From NCBI RefSeq assembly GCF_026241135.1, contig NZ_JAPFGA010000012.1:62001-126000 (forward strand): a DNA stretch of 64,000 nt, in the 5' to 3' direction. Each line of letters begins with the position of its first letter. The first letter of the stretch is position 1. This DNA is from Galbibacter kalidii. Its GTDB lineage: Bacteria; Bacteroidota; Bacteroidia; Flavobacteriales; Flavobacteriaceae. A program made the translations under genes and the position numbers. Positions 6,195-26,225 of the stretch are shown here, in pieces. The notes below the pieces were generated by a model. The model saw only the letters and a program-made list of their open reading frames with translations, did not search any database and had not been told where the DNA came from.

Positions 6195-7457
6195 TCAAAC
6201 CAGATATTGAAACAGATCCGGTTTGTTGTTCAAATAATCCCCATAAAAGTTACGGGCTTTCATACGCGCTATTAAAGGTTCCAGATCGGCTTCATCTTTT
6301 AATTCGATACCAACCACGGCCGGAGCATATACCTTAGCGTTCTTTTTGGTATATTGGAAATGAGTAATATCGTCATTCGGACCCAAAATTTCGGCTACAA
6401 AATCTTTTAAAGCTCCTGCCCGCTGTGGAAAACGTACAATAAAATAGTGCTTTAGATTTGCGTACAAGAGTGCACGTTCTTTAATCTCGGGAGTTCGTAA
6501 AATATCATTATTGCTCCCACTCACCACACAGACCACGTTTTTGCCTTTAATTTCGTCTTTAAACAAGCTTAAGGCAGCTAATGTCAATGCTCCCGCCGGT
6601 TCAACGACTACAGCATCTTTATTGTAAAGATCAAGGATCTCCTGACATACTTTCCCTTCCGGGATCGTGATCATTTCCTTCAGCAATTGCTGGCAAATGG
6701 CAAAGGTTTTATCCCCCACACGTTGTACGGCAGCTCCATCAACAAATTTATCGATCTTGTCCAGTTTGATGTTCTCGTTGTTGTCCAACGAAGTTTTCAT
6801 TGAAGGCGCCCCTTCTGGTTCTACCCCAATGATCTTGGTTTGAGGCGAAAGTACATGAAACACACTCGCCAGTCCTGATGCGAGTCCGCCACCACCAACT
6901 GCAACAAAAACATAATCGATTGCCTTTTTGGTCTGCTCCAGGATCTCAAGTCCGACCGTTGCCTGCCCTTCAATCACTTTTTCATCGTCAAAAGGGTGTA
7001 CAAAGGTTTTTCCTTGCCTTTCACATTCGGCCATGGCTGCTTTGTTGGCATCGTCGAACGTATCACCTTCCAAAACAATATCGATATAATCTTCACCAAA
7101 CATCTTTACCTGTTCAATTTTCTGTTTTGGCGTTGGTGAAGGCATATAAATAGTCCCTTTAATCTTCAGTTCCTTACATGAATAGGCCACCCCTTGTGAG
7201 TGATTTCCTGCGGAAGCGCATACAATTCCCTTTTCCCGTTCTTCTTCGGATAAAGAACTGATTTTGTTATAAGCACCTCGGATCTTGTACGAGCGCACCA
7301 CTTGAAGGTCTTCCCGCTTTAAGAGCACATTCGCTTCAAAGGTTTTTGAATAGCGTAAGCTTTTGGTTAAAGGCGTAACTGCCGCCACTCCATTGAGAGT
7401 AGCAGCAGCCTTCCTTACATTTTCAATTTTTGGTATGTAAACTGTTTCTGTTTCCAT
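6195..7457 (-). CDS. ilvA: threonine dehydratase (biosynthetic), single regulatory domain
   Basis: 420 residues from the ATG at 7457. The frame is open further upstream to an ATG at 7496, but those 13 extra residues (MSKPCILLKLNSY) overlap repeat-like DNA and are not family-like. The PLP-dependent enzyme deaminates threonine to 2-oxobutanoate, the first step to isoleucine. Lys 58 in RSYKIRGAYNK is the PLP lysine; VGGGGLASG binds the phosphate; SAGNHSQGVAYS is the substrate loop. The C-terminal 90 residues form one ACT-like domain (HYFIVRFPQRAGALKDF), as in the shorter Bacillus/Corynebacterium type, versus two in E. coli IlvA. It is the last gene of the ilv run, 82 bases after ilvC. Feedback inhibition by isoleucine is expected from the domain. 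Confidence 0.95.
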   Translation of the reverse strand: METETVYIPKIENVRKAAATLNGVAAVTPLTKSLRYSKTFEANVLLKREDLQVVRSYKIRGAYNKISSLSEEEREKGIVCASAGNHSQGVAYSCKELKIKGTIYMPSPTPKQKIEQVKMFGEDYIDIVLEGDTFDDANKAAMAECERQGKTFVHPFDDEKVIEGQATVGLEILEQTKKAIDYVFVAVGGGGLASGLASVFHVLSPQTKIIGVEPEGAPSMKTSLDNNENIKLDKIDKFVDGAAVQRVGDKTFAICQQLLKEMITIPEGKVCQEILDLYNKDAVVVEPAGALTLAALSLFKDEIKGKNVVCVVSGSNNDILRTPEIKERALLYANLKHYFIVRFPQRAGALKDFVAEILGPNDDITHFQYTKKNAKVYAPAVVGIELKDEADLEPLIARMKARNFYGDYLNNKPDLFQYLV

Positions 7458-7484
7458 ATAGCTATTTAGTTTTAGAAGAATACA

Positions 7485-7512
7485 AGGCTTCGACAAGCTC
7501 AGCCTGACAGCT
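7485..7512. repeat. single half-site of the type 1 palindromic repeat
   Basis: GGCTTCGACAAGCTCAGCCT followed by GACAG resembles the inner half-site of the elements at 4291-4433 and 21235-21363. It lies in the ilvC-ilvA gap and has no partner arm. Confidence 0.5.
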
Positions 7513-7539: not shown

Positions 7540-9009
7540 TTATACAATCTTTTTCATCGCTGTCATGGAAGAACGTAACCACGCTCCTACTTCTTCCACA
7601 GGATGATTTCTTATTTCAGCATTGACCGCGATCAATTCTTTATTGTCAACAGAATTGTTTGCAGCAAATGGCTTTCCGATGACATTGGTGTCGATTGTCT
7701 TCATAAAGTTTGCCAATAGTGGCTTACAAGCATGATCAAACAAATAACAACCGTATTCAGCTGTATCTGAAATAACACGGTTCATTTCAAACAATTTCTT
7801 TCTCGCGATGGTATTAGCGATCAACGGAGTTTCGTGAAGCGATTCATAATAAGTCGATTCTTCAATAATTCCGGCTTCTGTCATTGTTTCAAAAGCCAAT
7901 TCCACTCCTGATTTTACAAAAGCGACCATCAACACTCCGTTATCGAAATATTCCTGTTCAGAGATGTTATCATCACCAGCTGGAGTTTTCTCAAAGGCTG
8001 TTTCCCCTGTTTCTGCTCTCCATGTATGCAAGTTTTTATCTCCATTTGCCCAGTCTTCCATCATGGTTTTAGAGAAATGTCCACTCATGATATCGTCCAT
8101 ATGTTTTTGGAAAAGCGGACGCATAATTTTTTTCAATTCATCTGAAAGTCTGTACGCTTCTATTTTGGCCGGATTGGACAAACGATCCATCATATTAGTG
8201 ATTCCACCATGCTTTAGGGCTTCTGTAATGGTTTCCCATCCGTATTGAATCAACTTTGAAGCATAGCCCGGATCGACTCCTTTTTCAACCATTTTATCAA
8301 AACTCAAGATCGATCCCGTTTGCAATAATCCACATAGAATGGTTTGCTCACCCATCAAATCTGATTTTACTTCGGCTACAAAAGAAGAACGCAATACCCC
8401 AGCTCTGTGTCCACCGGTAGCAGCTGCATAAGCTTTTGCCTGCTCCAATCCTTTGCTTTCAGGGTCGTTTTCCGGGTGAACGGCTATAAGTGTTGGTACT
8501 CCAAAGCCTCTTTTGTATTCTTCACGTACTTCAGAACCGGGACACTTTGGTGCCACCATGATCACGGTAATGTCTTCACGGATTTTCATCCCCTCTTCCA
8601 CGATATTGAAACCGTGTGAATATGACAATGTCGATCCTTTTTTCATCAAAGGCATGATCGTACTCACAACATTGCTGTGCTGTTTGTCCGGCGTCAGGTT
8701 ACAAACCAGATCGGCCGTTGGGATCAATTCATCGTATGTCCCTACTGTAAATCCGTTTTCGGTAGCGTTTACATACGATTGTCTCTTTTCTTTAATGGCT
8801 CCTTTACGCAAGGCATAAGAAATATCCAATCCGGAGTCTCTCATATTCAATCCCTGATTGAGTCCTTGTGCCCCACATCCTACAATTACTACTTTTTTTC
8901 CTTTTAGTTTTTCTACACCATCACTAAATTCTGAGATGTCCATAAATTCACATACTCCTAATTGTTCTAATTGCTGTCTGAGTGAAAGTGTATTAAAATA
9001 ATTTGCCAT
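7540..9009 (-). CDS. ilvC: ketol-acid reductoisomerase, class II
   Basis: 489 residues, the long (class II) form with a duplicated C-terminal helical domain, close to the 491 residues of E. coli IlvC. It converts acetolactate or acetohydroxybutyrate to the dihydroxy acid using NADPH and Mg. The N-terminal Rossmann motif [19 protein letters not shown] is almost that of E. coli. [14 protein letters not shown] provides the NADPH phosphate-binding residues. Acidic Mg ligands sit in the [18 protein letters not shown] segment and the matching repeat around residue 385-395. It lies 41 bases downstream of ilvN in the ilv operon. Confidence 0.97.
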
Positions 9010-9050: not shown

Positions 9051-9581
9051 TTAGTAAAGTTGAAATTCTTTTAAAATATTGGAGATTTGCATCTCTGATT
9101 TTGATACGGAAATCCTTCCCGATCTTACGAACTGCATAATTCCATAAGGTTTTAGCTGTTCATACATCTCTTCGATCTCTTCACGCCTTCCCGATTTTGA
9201 GATGACAAAGAATTCCGGAGAAACCGTTACAATCTCTGAGTGATTGTCTTTTATGATATTCTGAATCTGACGTTCATCAAACAATAGTCTTGAAGCTATT
9301 TTGAATAAACCCGTTTCCAAAAATATGGTTTCTTCGTCGGTGTGATAATAAGCTTTGATCACTTCGATCTGCTTTTCAATTTGTCCAACGATCTTACGAG
9401 CCCAATCTTCAGTAGAATAGATAACGATCGTAAATTTTGAAACATTATCAATCTCAGATTTTGAAACATTCAGACTCTCAATATTAATATGTCTCTTCAA
9501 AAATATTCCGGATATCCTGTTCAATAATCCTACGTTATTTTCAGAATAAACCGATATGGTGAATGTTTTATTGCCTTCCAT
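9051..9581 (-). CDS. ilvN: acetolactate synthase small (regulatory) subunit
   Basis: 176 residues. It activates the IlvB catalytic subunit and normally confers feedback inhibition by valine. Residues 5-80 are an ACT domain that begins [34 protein letters not shown], in which the Gly-Leu-Leu-x-Arg loop contacts the amino acid. Residues about 95-165 match the acetolactate synthase small-subunit C-terminal domain. The length is that of the full-length IlvH/IlvN type. It is placed 62 bases after ilvB and 41 before ilvC, as expected for one operon. (Only motifs are named here; the ACT loop centre is [11 protein letters not shown].). Confidence 0.95.
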
Positions 9582-9643: not shown

Positions 9644-11377
9644 TTAACTCAAACGAACATCTGAAACCGAAGCTCCTGACGGAATCATCGGGAATACATT
9701 GTCTTCTTTCTCTACACATACCTCTAAGAAATATGCATTTGGAGAAGCAATCATTTCCTGAACAGCCTTAGCCAGATCTTCCCGTTTGGTTACTTTTTTA
9801 GCTTCAATATGATAACCTTGTGCTATGGTTATAAAATCCGGATTGGTCATTTCGGTTGAGGCATAACGCTTGTCAAAAAACAATTGCTGCCACTGACGCA
9901 CCATTCCGAGAAAATCATTGTTAAGCACCACAATTTTTACAGGTACTTTGGTTTGGAATATCGTTCCCAATTCCTGAATGGTCATTTGATAGCCGCCGTC
10001 ACCGATAACCGCTACAACTTCACGTTCGGGAGCTCCCATTTTGGCTCCGATAGCTGCCGGAAGTGCGAACCCCATGGTTCCCAATCCTCCGGAGGTAATG
10101 TTACTTTTTGTGGTATTAAATTTTGCATAGCGACAAGCGATCATTTGATGCTGTCCCACATCCGAAACGATTACGGCTTCCTGCTTGGAAGCATTATTGA
10201 TTTCTTCAATAACCTCACCCATCGTCAAACCTTCTTTTTCCGGATAGATATCGTGTTTTATCACCTTCTCAAATTCGATCTTGTGTTTTTCCTTATACTC
10301 ATTGTGCCATGCCTCATGTTTGTTCTCTTTAATAAGCGGTAGCAATTGTTGCAGGCTTTCTTTTACATCACCCAATACCGGAACATCAGCATGTACGTTT
10401 TTATTGATCTCTGCCGGATCGATTTCAAAATGCAAGACTTTTGCCTGTTTTGCATAAGTATTCAAATCGCCCGTAACACGGTCGTCAAAGCGCATCCCAA
10501 GAGCAATCAAAACATCACATTCGTTAGTCAGCATATTGGGTGCATAGTTCCCATGCATCCCTACCATTCCCACATTAAGCGGATGTGATGATGGCAATGC
10601 GGAAGCTCCAAGGATGGTCCATGCAGCCGGGACACCCGACTTCTCAATCAAGGTTTTTAGTTCCTCTTCTGCTTTTCCTAAAATAATTCCTTGTCCCCAA
10701 ACGATCATAGGTTTTTTAGCGCTATTGATCAATGCCGCAGCTTCTTCAATTTTTGAAGTGTTTACAACTGGTTTTGCAGTATAACTTCTGATCGCAGTAC
10801 ATTTCTGATAATCAAAATCAAACTCTTCAAACTGAGCATTTTTGGTAATATCGATAAGTACAGGACCCGGACGACCAGATCTTGCTATATAAAATGCCTT
10901 TGCCATGATTTCGGGAATTTCAGATGCTTTTGTGATCTGATAGTTCCATTTGGTCACCGGAGTGGAAATTCCAATAATATCGGTCTCCTGAAAAGCATCA
11001 GAACCCAATAAATGGCGAGCCACCTGTCCAGTGATACAAACAATAGGGGTTGAATCTATTTGAGCATCGGCGATACCGGTAATCAAATTGGTAGCTCCGG
11101 GACCTGATGTTGCCATAGCAACACCTACTTTTCCTGAAACCCTGGCATAGCCTTGTGCGGCATGTGTAGCGCCTTGTTCATGACGTGTCAAGACATGGTG
11201 TAATTTATCCCTGAATTTATATAGTTCATCATAAATAGGCATAATTGCCCCTCCAGGATAACCGTAAACGGTTTCAATTCCCTCTGCCAAAAGGCAATGG
11301 ATCACAGCTTCTGCTCCGGAAATCCTTATTGTGGTTCCGTTTATGCTTTCCCCTTTTTTTAGTGTTTTTACTTCCAT
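9644..11377 (-). CDS. ilvB: acetolactate synthase large (catalytic) subunit
   Basis: About 577 residues from the ATG at 11377. An earlier in-frame ATG at 11419 would add 14 residues running almost into the ilvD stop (MIIAAQSVTKRLLL) and is less likely. The ThDP enzyme condenses pyruvate with pyruvate or 2-oxobutanoate. The three expected domains are visible: the N-terminal pyrimidine-binding domain with the catalytic Glu in TRHEQGATHAAQGYAR, the central FAD-type domain, and the C-terminal ThDP-pyrophosphate domain with GDGGYQMTIQELGT...NND. Motifs PGGAIMPIYDEL and TSGPGATNLITG are typical of acetohydroxyacid synthase. It lies 56 bases after ilvD and is followed by its regulatory subunit. Confidence 0.96.
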   Translation of the reverse strand: MEVKTLKKGESINGTTIRISGAEAVIHCLLAEGIETVYGYPGGAIMPIYDELYKFRDKLHHVLTRHEQGATHAAQGYARVSGKVGVAMATSGPGATNLITGIADAQIDSTPIVCITGQVARHLLGSDAFQETDIIGISTPVTKWNYQITKASEIPEIMAKAFYIARSGRPGPVLIDITKNAQFEEFDFDYQKCTAIRSYTAKPVVNTSKIEEAAALINSAKKPMIVWGQGIILGKAEEELKTLIEKSGVPAAWTILGASALPSSHPLNVGMVGMHGNYAPNMLTNECDVLIALGMRFDDRVTGDLNTYAKQAKVLHFEIDPAEINKNVHADVPVLGDVKESLQQLLPLIKENKHEAWHNEYKEKHKIEFEKVIKHDIYPEKEGLTMGEVIEEINNASKQEAVIVSDVGQHQMIACRYAKFNTTKSNITSGGLGTMGFALPAAIGAKMGAPEREVVAVIGDGGYQMTIQELGTIFQTKVPVKIVVLNNDFLGMVRQWQQLFFDKRYASTEMTNPDFITIAQGYHIEAKKVTKREDLAKAVQEMIASPNAYFLEVCVEKEDNVFPMIPSGASVSDVRLS

Positions 11378-11433
11378 AAGTAACAATCTTTTAGTTACGG
11401 ACTGCGCCGCAATTATCAAATTGAGGCTATTGT

Positions 11434-13134
11434 TTAAAATTCATCGGTTACGCAGCCCTGAGAAGCAGATGAAACCGTTTTTGCATATTTATACAATACT
11501 CCTTTTTTAAATTTTAATTCAGGCGCCTTCCATGCCGCCTTACGTTTTGCTAATTCCTCCTCAGTCAATTCAACATTGATGCTGTTCTCTACTGCATCGA
11601 TCGTTATAATATCTCCATCTTGCACCAAGGCTATGTTTCCTCCTGTTTGTGCTTCGGGCGATACGTGTCCCACCACAAACCCGTGAGATCCTCCAGAGAA
11701 ACGTCCGTCGGTAATCAAAGCCACATCTTTCCCAAGCCCGGCACCCATAATGGCTGCAGTAGGCTTCAACATTTCCGGCATTCCGGGACCTCCCTTCGGA
11801 CCTTCATAGCGGATGACGACGACGTCTCCTTTTTCTACCTCACCATTTTTAATACCGTCGTTGGCATCATATTCCCCTTCAAAAACCTTAGCCTTTCCTT
11901 TAAAATAAAGTCCCTCTTTTCCTGTGATCTTAGCCACAGCTCCCTCTTCAGCAAGGTTTCCATACAAAATGCGGAGGTGTCCGCTTTCTTTGATCGGATC
12001 TTCAACTGTTTTTATGATCTCCTGACCTTCGGTCAAGTCGTCAACATCCAATAGGTTTTCTGCCAGTGTCTTTCCGGTGACTGTCAAACAATCGCCGTGT
12101 AGCATTCCTTTCTTCAGCATATATTTCAATACTGCGGGAACACCTCCAACCTTATGCAGGTCTTCCATCACATATTTTCCACTGGGTTTTAAATCTGATA
12201 TAAACGGCGTGGTATCACTAATTCTCTGAAAATCTTCCAAAGTAAATTCCACATTTGCTGCTTTGGCAATTGCCAAAAAGTGAAGTACTGCATTGGTAGA
12301 ACCTCCCAAGACCGTTACCAAACGAATGGCATTCTCCAACGATTTTCTGGTTACTATATCTGATGGTTTTATATCCTTTTCCAATAAATTGCGAACGGCC
12401 TCACCCGCTGCTTCGCTCTCTATATTTTTCTCTTTGCTCACAGCCGGGGTTGATGAATTGTATGGCAATGCCATCCCAAGTGCCTCAATGGCCGATGCCA
12501 TAGTGTTTGCCGTATACATCCCTCCACAGGCTCCTGCCCCGGGACAAGCATGGTGCACCACTCCTTTGAATTCTTCTTGGGTAATGGTTCCCGCCACTTT
12601 TTGCCCCCAAGCTTCAAAAGCAGAAACAACATCCAGTTTTTTTCCTTTGTGACATCCTGCAGCAATAGTTCCTCCATAAACCAATACTGATGGTCTGTCT
12701 AAACGAAGCATTGCCATCAATGCTCCGGGCATATTTTTATCACAACCAACCACAGTAACCAATCCGTCGTATCTCATCGCCTGTACTACCGTTTCTACCG
12801 AATCGGCAATAATATCCCTGGAGGGTAATGAAAAACGCATTCCTGGAGTTCCCATGGAAATTCCGTCACTCACCCCGATCGAATTAAAAATGAGTCCTAC
12901 CATATCAGCATTCTGAACCCCTTTTTTCACATCTTTAGACAGGTCGTTCAGGTGCATATTACACGGGTTTCCTTCATATCCGGTGCTGGCTATACCCACA
13001 AACGGCTTTTGAAGATCCTCATCGGTTAATCCCAAAGCGTGCAACATGGCTTGAGCCGCCGGTTGCGTCGGGTCTTGTGTTACTTGCTTGCTATACTTGT
13101 TTAAATTCACTTTAAATGTTAAATTTTTCGACAA
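11434..13134 (-). CDS. ilvD: dihydroxy-acid dehydratase
   Basis: 566 residues. It dehydrates dihydroxyisovalerate and dihydroxymethylvalerate to the 2-oxo acids. The three Fe-S ligand cysteines appear as [18 protein letters not shown] and [16 protein letters not shown]. The C-terminal swivel domain carries GGPGMPEM and [12 protein letters not shown], the latter with the catalytic Ser. The ATG at 13134 gives an N-terminus about nine residues longer than the usual MELNKYSK-type start ([16 protein letters not shown]), so a start at a later codon cannot be excluded. First structural gene of the ilv operon; the 5' leader contains two attenuators and a dispersed repeat. Confidence 0.96.
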
Positions 13135-13344
13135 TTATTAATTATATTCAAATTTATATTAATGTATTTTCAAGGTTTACTTCTTTTTATTTCTAATTTT
13201 AAATCCAACGTTCGATATAAATAGTTATCTTTTTGATAATCAGGCAAATAACTTTATTTTTTTAGGACATTCAACCTTTATTTTTTATACAATTTAATCC
13301 CCGATTGTTATTTATTTACCCCCAAATAAACAGCTCAAACATTC

Positions 13345-13460
13345 AAATCAACTGCCTCGGGACAAGCCTGTATACCGACAAAAGCAGGCCCACATGGTAT
13401 TCAAATAAATTTTACTTTGGCTCATTTCGATGTAAAACATCGGAAAATTAAACCCTCTTA
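13345..13460 (-). repeat. hairpin repeat family H, copy in the ilv leader
   Basis: Read on the minus strand, this segment aligns along nearly its full length with the element at 26081-26225. Shared blocks include ATCGAAATGAG, TTTGAATAC, GTGGGCCTGC, ACAGGCTT, CCGAGG and AGTTGATTT. It lacks the first few bases and the CCTGAC...GTCAGG hairpin of the full copy. It keeps the second hairpin as CGATGT TTT ACATCG, with a compensated pair compared with CGATGC TCT GCATCG at 26129. It lies between the second attenuator and ilvD, so it is transcribed as part of the ilv leader. Confidence 0.8.
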
Positions 13461-13470
13461 GTCGGCAACA

Positions 13471-13504
13471 AAAAAGCCTGTATCTCGATTGACACAGGCT
13501 TTTG
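13471..13504 (-). terminator. ilv attenuator terminator 2
   Basis: On the minus strand AAAAGCCTGT pairs with ACAGGCTTTT across an 11-base loop and is followed by a T run (13466-13475 region reads AAAAAA on the plus strand). It lies 27 bases after the stop of leader peptide 2. Confidence 0.85.
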
Positions 13505-13530
13505 TATAAAACATAGTCTCCCGTATCAAC

Positions 13531-13584
13531 TCAGCACGAGTTAATAATGACGATAATGGCTATGATAATGTTCTTGATATTCAT
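13531..13584 (-). CDS. ilv operon leader peptide 2
   Basis: A 17-codon frame, MNIKNIIIAIIVIINSC, with eight Ile and one Val. It ends 27 bases before an intrinsic terminator and lies between attenuator 1 and ilvD. Such a run of Ile codons directly ahead of a terminator and an ilv operon is the hallmark of ribosome-mediated attenuation: when charged Ile-tRNA is short, the ribosome stalls and the terminator cannot form. The peptide itself needs no function. Seen: frame, codon content, terminator. Inferred: the regulation. Confidence 0.85.
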   Translation of the reverse strand: MNIKNIIIAIIVIINSC

Positions 13585-13597
13585 TCTGTTATATACT

Positions 13598-13626
13598 AAA
13601 AAAGCCTCCCGAATCCGGAAGGCTTT
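13598..13626 (-). terminator. ilv attenuator terminator 1
   Basis: In the minus-strand RNA, AAAGCCUUCCGG pairs with the complement segment CGGGAGGCUUU around a small GAUU loop (one G-U pair) and is followed by six U. It lies 35 bases after the stop of leader peptide 1. Confidence 0.87.
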
Positions 13627-13660
13627 GTCTAATTATTTAAATAATACACATTCCTTCCTC

Positions 13661-13720
13661 TCACAGTGAAATAATCACCACGACAATGACAGAAATGATA
13701 TTAATGATTTGCTTATGCAT
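13661..13720 (-). CDS. ilv operon leader peptide 1
   Basis: A 19-codon frame, MHKQIINIISVIVVVIISL, with seven Ile, four Val and one Leu. It is followed at 35 bases by an intrinsic terminator. It is the first of two tandem leader peptides ahead of ilvD and, with its Val cluster, could sense valine as well as isoleucine; leader 2 senses mainly isoleucine. A possible -7 element TAATATTG (one mismatch to TAnnTTTG) lies at 13726-13733 on the minus strand. It would place the transcript start almost at the ATG, so the leader could be translated from a leaderless or nearly leaderless message. Confidence 0.87.
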   Translation of the reverse strand: MHKQIINIISVIVVVIISL

Positions 13721-13776
13721 CACTGCAATATTAGATATAATTTCTATATTGAAAAAACTTTTTTAGTTTAAATTTT

Positions 13777-26080: not shown

Positions 26081-26225
26081 AATCCCACTAAGTGGGTTTA
26101 ACCTGACTGCCGTCAGGCAAGTTTCCCCGATGCTCTGCATCGAAATGAGTTAAGGTTTATTCGTTTGAATACTTCGTGGGCCTGCCTCTGTCGGCAGACA
26201 GGCTTACCCCCGAGGTAGTTGATTT
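26081..26225 (+). repeat. hairpin repeat family H, longest copy
   Basis: 145 bases containing three potential hairpins: CCTGAC-TGCC-GTCAGG (near 26102), CGATGC-TCT-GCATCG (near 26129) and GCCTG...CAGGC (near 26180-26203). The outer segment begins AATCCCACTAAGTGGG, itself a small palindrome, and ends GAGGTAGTTGATTT. Related copies are at 13345-13460 (minus), 28486-28524 (minus, internally deleted) and 36921-37020 (plus, decayed). No open frame is present. Confidence 0.82.

Follow-up and report, generated by a model that had tools for sequence, protein, structure and literature searches.

The window, the whole 64,000-nucleotide stretch of Galbibacter kalidii DNA analysed here, carries an ilv operon on its minus strand in the order ilvD-ilvB-ilvN-ilvC-ilvA, downstream of two putative attenuators (NCBIfam gene assignments):

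11434..13110, minus strand, ilvD, first gene of the operon, GTG start (NCBIfam)
9644..11419, minus strand, ilvB open reading frame, acetolactate synthase large subunit (NCBIfam)
9051..9581, minus strand, ilvN, acetolactate synthase small subunit (NCBIfam)
7540..9009, minus strand, ilvC, ketol-acid reductoisomerase (NCBIfam)
6195..7496, minus strand, ilvA open reading frame, threonine ammonia-lyase (NCBIfam)

Judged by relatives, the start of ilvD is most likely the GTG at 13110. The upstream region contains the following features, in the order of transcription:

13726..13733, minus strand, -7 box of predicted promoter P1, TAATATTG, a motif match
13661..13720, minus strand, leader peptide 1, type A, MHKQIINIISVIVVVIISL followed by a stop codon; 19 codons with 7 Ile, 4 Val and 1 Leu
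13642..13703, minus strand, protector hairpin of unit 1 (segments 1:2), -20.3 kcal/mol with segment 3 omitted
13653..13658, minus strand, segment 2 of unit 1, GGAAGG just past the stop codon, forming the antiterminator with CCTTCC at 13622-13617
13598..13626, minus strand, terminator 1, type A (segments 3:4 and U-tract), predicted intrinsic, -17.2 kcal/mol
13531..13584, minus strand, leader peptide 2, type B, MNIKNIIIAIIVIINSC followed by a stop codon; 17 codons with 8 Ile and 1 Val
13524..13546, minus strand, protector hairpin of unit 2, AACUC...GAGUU flanking the stop codon, predicted fold
13520..13530, minus strand, segment 2 of unit 2, GTTGATACGGG, forming the antiterminator with CCTGTGTCAAT at 13498-13488
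13471..13503, minus strand, terminator 2, type B (segments 3:4 and U-tract), predicted intrinsic, -18.9 kcal/mol
13342..13465, unstranded, dispersed repeat between terminator 2 and P2, found by genome search
13263..13274, minus strand, operator-like block 1 of P2, TTGAATGTCCTA, conserved motif
13198..13208, minus strand, operator-like block 2 of P2, TTGGATTTAAA, 66 bases past block 1
13149..13156, minus strand, predicted -7 box of P2, TAAATTTG, 118 bases past block 1

Each unit combines a leader rich in Ile and Val with a protector hairpin, an antiterminator close to the stop codon and a predicted intrinsic terminator, so that the window is predicted to hold two complete classical four-segment attenuators upstream of ilvD. 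Ile, Val and Leu make up 12 of the 19 residues of leader 1 and 9 of the 17 residues of leader 2. The initial annotation had reported two tandem Ile/Val-rich leader and terminator units before the ilv genes, and its coordinates and codon counts hold. It had also put ilvD directly after terminator 2, which was incorrect: about 360 bases lie between them, including the dispersed repeat and the P2-like element. A simple terminator scan picks up terminator 1 only; terminator 2 comes from folding. When the 280-base stretch spanning both units was dinucleotide-shuffled, two units appeared in 0 of 2000 shuffles and a single leader-plus-terminator unit in 13 of 2000. At the gathering threshold, Rfam gave no match in the window to T-box, riboswitch, Thr_leader, Phe_leader or other leader families, and at E values up to 1 it gave eleven sub-threshold matches; a riboswitch or T-box identity was dropped because no covariance model for either matched. 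One of the weak matches was Thr_leader on unit 2 (13583-13467; 29.9 bits against a gathering threshold of 55), which is expectable for an Ile-codon leader of similar layout.

To place the locus among relatives, ilvD upstream regions of the family Flavobacteriaceae were surveyed. IlvD was detected in 164 of 199 family genomes (163 of 198 genera; nearly one genome per genus), and 140 of the 164 entered the survey, the 24 omitted including the window's own genome, contig ends and a truncated gene. By a strict detector, 78 upstream regions had no unit, 54 had one, seven had two and one had three, the third there being a weak hairpin of -8 kcal/mol. At least one unit was thus present in 62/140 and at least two in 8/140, the tandem being a minority state in the family. 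In the controls, the opposite strand gave one unit in 3/140 and two in 0/140, and shuffled sequences gave one in 23/1400 and two in 0/1400. A looser detector that allowed GTG or TTG starts raised the opposite-strand calls from 3 to 23 of 140, and the strict detector was therefore used for counts; the looser one adds L198 as an A-B locus, in which A looks spurious.

The units fell into two main types. Type A has the terminator CCTTCC..GGAAGG or similar and a leader like MKKQILNIISIIVIVIISQG, and type B has the terminator CCTGTATC..GATACAGG; each was also found alone. Type A preceded type B in all eight tandem family loci (L114, L119, L121, L122, L131, L141, L145 and L162) and in the named loci L018 (Gaetbulibacter sp. 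S0825) and L035 (uncultured Lutibacter). Among the 80 loci of the named set, 26 had one unit and five had two, the second hairpin of L013 being weak; named locus L011 (Meridianimaribacter) and L104 carry the same unit. In L041 (Thalassovita bin) and L059 (Candidatus Planktophila bin), ilvD was 71% and 67% identical to that of the window, and both are probably mis-binned Bacteroidota contigs.

Within the genus, both units were found in six of seven loci (the window and G001-G006), that is, in five of the six other members, with unit 1 of L095 assigned by eye because the detector had drawn an overlong hairpin. Leader 1 had a counterpart in 7/7 genus loci and leader 2 in 6/7; L094 (G002) had unit 1 only, and no unit 2 counterpart was found there. 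Across the genus, leader 2 is rich in Ile and 16-18 residues long, and in four of six loci it ends in Asn-Ser-X-stop. Of the 15 tandem A-B loci, nine carried the protector motif AACTC..GAGTT of unit 2; five of these belong to the genus and four lie outside (L018, L114, L121 and L122). Conservation of both frames in relatives, which the initial annotation had named as a check, is thus borne out.

Folding of the two window units predicted mutually exclusive structures. The unit 1 protector is predicted to form from the 3' part of the leader and bases past the stop codon, and in both types segment 2 of the antiterminator starts near the stop codon. With a ribosome at the stop codon, assumed to cover 13 bases past it, segment 2 was hidden and only the terminator was left to form. 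When RNA ending with segment 3 was folded as if untranslated, both units gave 2:3 as the best structure, not the protector; before arm 4 was made, the antiterminator reached -11.6 kcal/mol in unit 1 and -13.9 kcal/mol, with 11 pairs, in unit 2. The protector hairpins appeared when segment 3 was absent or arm 4 present. Once arm 4 was made, 3:4 was more stable than 2:3 in both units, so that antitermination must rest on timing.

We further examined the pairing of segments across loci, in sets of 61 type A and 32 type B units that included named loci. Hairpins weaker than -10 kcal/mol were left out here and in the composition, -7 box and unit-alignment analyses. Duplicates (L141, L011 and L028) and doubtful calls (L096, L187, L113 and L205) were dropped before the composition analysis, and L070, L073 and L032 were also dropped from the pairing permutation, the paired tests and the -7 box analysis. 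For type A, segment 2 paired with the segment 3 of its own locus with a mean score of 14.59 against 13.38 with other loci, and 0 of 2000 permutations were as good; for type B, the scores were 19.69 and 18.94, with 35 of 2000 permutations as good. Cross-type pairing was lower (12.3 and 11.2 against own-type values of 14.6 and 19.7). The antiterminator was individually significant (p 0.05) in 20/63 type A, 28/34 type B and 6/16 other units, counts from which L141 only was dropped and which still include two duplicate pairs. Locus by locus, the antiterminator evidence is good for type B and patchy for type A and the others.

The two units differ in what precedes them. A -7 box with at most one mismatch was found in the preceding 35 bases of 78/89 first leaders (family, genus and named loci together) but of only 3/17 second leaders, and a perfect box was absent before second leaders (0/17). 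Within 20 nt of the ATG, 64/89 first leaders had a box with at most one mismatch, against 24% of shuffles, and 4/89 had a perfect box, against 2% in shuffles. The P1 box scored 5 nt before the ATG in 6/7 genus loci, and the seventh, L091, had the same string. As the Bacteroidota -7 box is reported to stand at -12 to -5 (PMC9723704), the position of the P1 box predicts a transcription start about 1 base before the leader 1 ATG, which would make this leader near-leaderless. Such a leader would be unusual, since leaderless mRNAs are given as only 5.5% in Flavobacterium psychrophilum (PMC9723704).

The second ATG lay 0-14 bases past the U-tract of terminator 1 in 13/15 A-B loci, and 43 and 112 bases past it in L145 and L095, respectively. 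Since the leader 2 ATG lies beyond this U-tract, an RNA terminated there carries no leader 2. No promoter is recognisable for unit 2, whose start codon stands beyond terminator 1; by sequence, therefore, the gates are in series, and transcription is predicted to reach unit 2 only after passing terminator 1, which would make the series obligatory. The serial order read by the initial annotation agrees with this placement of leader 2; frame, length class and codon content of both units are kept in relatives.

Downstream of both terminators, a conserved element, P2, precedes ilvD. Its consensus is TTGAAYRTSMTA, then TTGRMTTTAR at +66 bases, then TAnnTTTG 117-118 bases past block 1. Block 1 was present in 42/140 ilvD upstream regions against a shuffle mean of 0.2, a count that is partly circular for some genera, as the motif was derived from loci already viewed and then counted in the family set. 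It occurred in 22/61 loci with an attenuator unit and 20/79 without. The spacing between blocks 1 and 2 was 66 bases in 15/18 pairs, TAnnTTTG stood at 117 or 118 from block 1 in 21/42, and the motif pair had a single occurrence in its own genome. That the spacing stays constant while the sequence in between varies suggests a regulator that binds the DNA here, together with a promoter bypassing both attenuators, and ilv can probably also be transcribed from P2 without passing either terminator. The initial annotation had set a promoter downstream of both hairpins against its proposal; a P2-like element does lie there, yet the conserved P1 stands directly upstream of leader 1, so that the attenuators need not be wholly bypassed. 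Between the outer parts of P2 (13274-13149) a middle block similar to TGATTATCA was seen, about 33 bases from each neighbour, an arrangement that recalls evenly phased multi-site binding. The dispersed repeat, at most about 120 bases long, occurs at 10 places in the genome including 13465-13342; the other nine copies are 74-96% identical and mostly partial. A second copy lies within the window at 26127-26225.

P2 could also be the working ilv promoter, with P1 and the attenuators a minor or decaying branch. Its wide occurrence at fixed spacing, in loci with and without units, would suit such a role, as would the missing unit 2 of the congener L094; on the IlvD tree described below, type A requires 14 and type B 13 changes, which would fit frequent loss. 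However, 6/7 genus loci retain the P1 box together with the two leaders and their pairings, and tandem loci occur in both large clades of the tree, unlike decaying elements. We consider this explanation unlikely.

The amino acids read by the two leaders were compared in the 15 tandem loci, six of which come from one genus. Type A leaders contained on average 6.7 Ile, 2.4 Val and 1.9 Leu, and type B leaders 6.2 Ile, 1.6 Val and 0.7 Leu; at least one Val was present in 14/15 A and 15/15 B leaders. In paired tests without correction, the Val count was higher in A (p 0.028), whereas the Val fraction did not differ (p 0.25), and Val+Leu was higher in A both as a count and as a fraction (p 0.016 and p 0.048, respectively). 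Ile did not differ by count (p 0.34) and its fraction was higher in B (p 0.041). Type B leaders in tandem had 6.2 Ile and 1.6 Val (15 leaders), whereas those alone had 3.9 Ile and 3.4 Val (15 leaders; p 1.6e-4 for Ile and 3e-4 for Val). The IlvD tree gave three independent pairs for Val/Ile against tandem state, none against the Val trend but too few for significance. The initial annotation had leader 1 read Ile plus Val and leader 2 mainly Ile; the Val count agrees with this, while the Val fraction does not, and both leaders are Ile-dominated.

These compositions bear on an AND gate, in which leader 1 would sense Ile and Val, leader 2 mainly Ile, and full expression would need a particular combination. 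The 4 Val of leader 1 against 1 in leader 2 in the window point that way, as do the Val count, Val+Leu and Ile fraction in tandem loci and the Ile-richer, Val-poorer B leaders there than alone. On the other hand, Val fraction and Ile count do not differ in the tests of A against B, nearly all leaders of both types contain Val, and the several tests are uncorrected and drawn from related loci with three independent pairs. We regard the AND gate as distinctly improbable; the leader composition is a hint of divided labour, not of AND logic, and a multiplicative gate, the likeliest reading, fits better.

The arrangement that we favour, and hold to be probable though by no means assured, is two independent ribosome-mediated attenuators in series on the P1 transcript, plus an attenuation-independent P2 beyond both. 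With an ample supply of charged branched-chain tRNAs, Ile-tRNA in particular, the ribosome would reach the leader 1 stop codon and cover segment 2, and terminator 1 would form. At low charging, the ribosome would stall upstream, 2:3 would form and RNA polymerase would pass terminator 1. Leader 2 and terminator 2 would then repeat the decision, so that read-through would be the product of two probabilities, both falling as Ile charging rises. Such a product should leak less at the basal level, and respond more steeply, than a single unit; tandem riboswitches for the same signal are likewise described as expected to respond pseudo-cooperatively (PMC12452182). The operator-bearing P2, whatever its putative regulator may sense, would supply attenuation-independent transcription from beyond both terminators.

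It is very unlikely that short transcripts or peptides act in trans with series control secondary: both terminators would release discrete short RNAs, and a trans role is reported for the leader peptide peTrpL (PMC7298713), but leaders of the same type have little in common apart from being rich in Ile and Val and carrying short end motifs. Chance ILV-rich frames beside ordinary terminators, conceivable in A+T-rich DNA where Ile codons are common and single units arose in 23/1400 shuffles, are refuted for practical purposes by the absence of two units from all 1400 and 2000 shuffles, together with the cross-genus conservation and the unit-specific antiterminators.

Escherichia coli ilvGMEDA is an example of ribosome-mediated attenuation. 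Vitreschak and colleagues (2004) reportedly had Bacteroidetes/Chlorobi among their predicted attenuators. The present units share with the attenuation of amino-acid operons such as trp, as described in PMC3641672, a leader with control codons, alternative hairpins and same-pathway genes downstream; unlike that case, there are two complete units per leader, a near-leaderless first leader (predicted) and a Bacteroidota host. Salmonella mgtCBR likewise has two short open reading frames and two attenuators in one leader, but its signals differ (ATP and proline), the effects are reported as additive and independent, and its stem-loops are unlike intrinsic terminators (PMC3641672). In the present locus Ile dominates both leaders and each terminator resembles an intrinsic one, so that series action, unlike in mgtCBR, should be obligatory. 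Serial transcriptional gates in one leader, for the same or different signals, are also described for tandem riboswitches and T-boxes (PMC12452182); the sensor in tandem riboswitches is an RNA aptamer, whereas here it is predicted to be the translating ribosome. The rimP leader has two tandem terminators and a potential antiterminator, with no amino-acid leader peptide in the description given there (PMC2965389).

Closer to the window, a study of F. psychrophilum, also of the Flavobacteriaceae, reports 'strong clues' for leader peptide attenuation before amino-acid biosynthesis operons (PMC9723704); its main text does not contain 'ilv', and its description of such attenuation is not known to mention two units in series. 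Short open reading frames reminiscent of leader peptides are reported in Bacteroides (PMC7366714). A search of the openly licensed PubMed Central literature found no report of two amino-acid leader-peptide attenuators in series upstream of one operon. Since related genera carry single-A, single-B and A-B versions of this region, the effect of a second gate on leak, steepness or logic could be read from natural variants. As flavobacteria are reported to lack Shine-Dalgarno sequences (PMC9723704), widespread ribosome-read attenuation together with a near-leaderless leader would imply tight transcription-translation coupling without them.

To follow the history of the arrangement, an IlvD tree of 69 rows was built from 60 family genomes chosen by type, seven genus rows and two outgroups. 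L096, L124, L128 and L098 were labelled B by terminator, their leaders being weak or missing, and L133 was labelled as having none, though the looser detector gives A. Tandem loci fell in both large clades, and the four states together required 23 changes against a shuffled mean of 37. The fixed A-B order and the presence of the type B protector motif in both clades would favour one old A-B joining with many single losses, though on a tree with many weak forks. An origin of unit 2 by copying of unit 1 was considered and dropped: local alignment scores against the best of 200 shuffles were not above shuffles in L018 (46 vs 46) and L121 (47 vs 56). They were above in the window (49 vs 38) and L043 (64 vs 39), and with such mixed scores A and B may still go back to a remote common ancestor.

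A fuller history can be offered as a tentative and somewhat doubtful proposal: A and B came together a single time, in an early ancestor, A remained broad for Ile/Val/Leu while B narrowed to Ile behind it, and units were lost singly in many lineages, all beside an operator-controlled bypass promoter. If so, this would be an ancient two-stage gate, with ilv output set by a transcription-factor input and a multiplicative, translation-read input. In the tree, the IlvD of the window (L089) groups with G204 (support 85) and away from those of its congeners; a transfer or a loosely defined genus may be the reason.

Tandem units were also observed in other settings. L025, an uncultured Aquimarina, has two similar type-A-like attenuators about 530 bases upstream of ilvD, and their local alignment (133 against 55 for the best of 200 shuffles) looks like a tandem duplication. 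In L043, an Ignavibacteriae bin outside the family of the window, two Ile-rich leaders with terminators lie about 290 bases upstream of ilvD. Together, these two loci suggest that tandem attenuators probably arose more than once.
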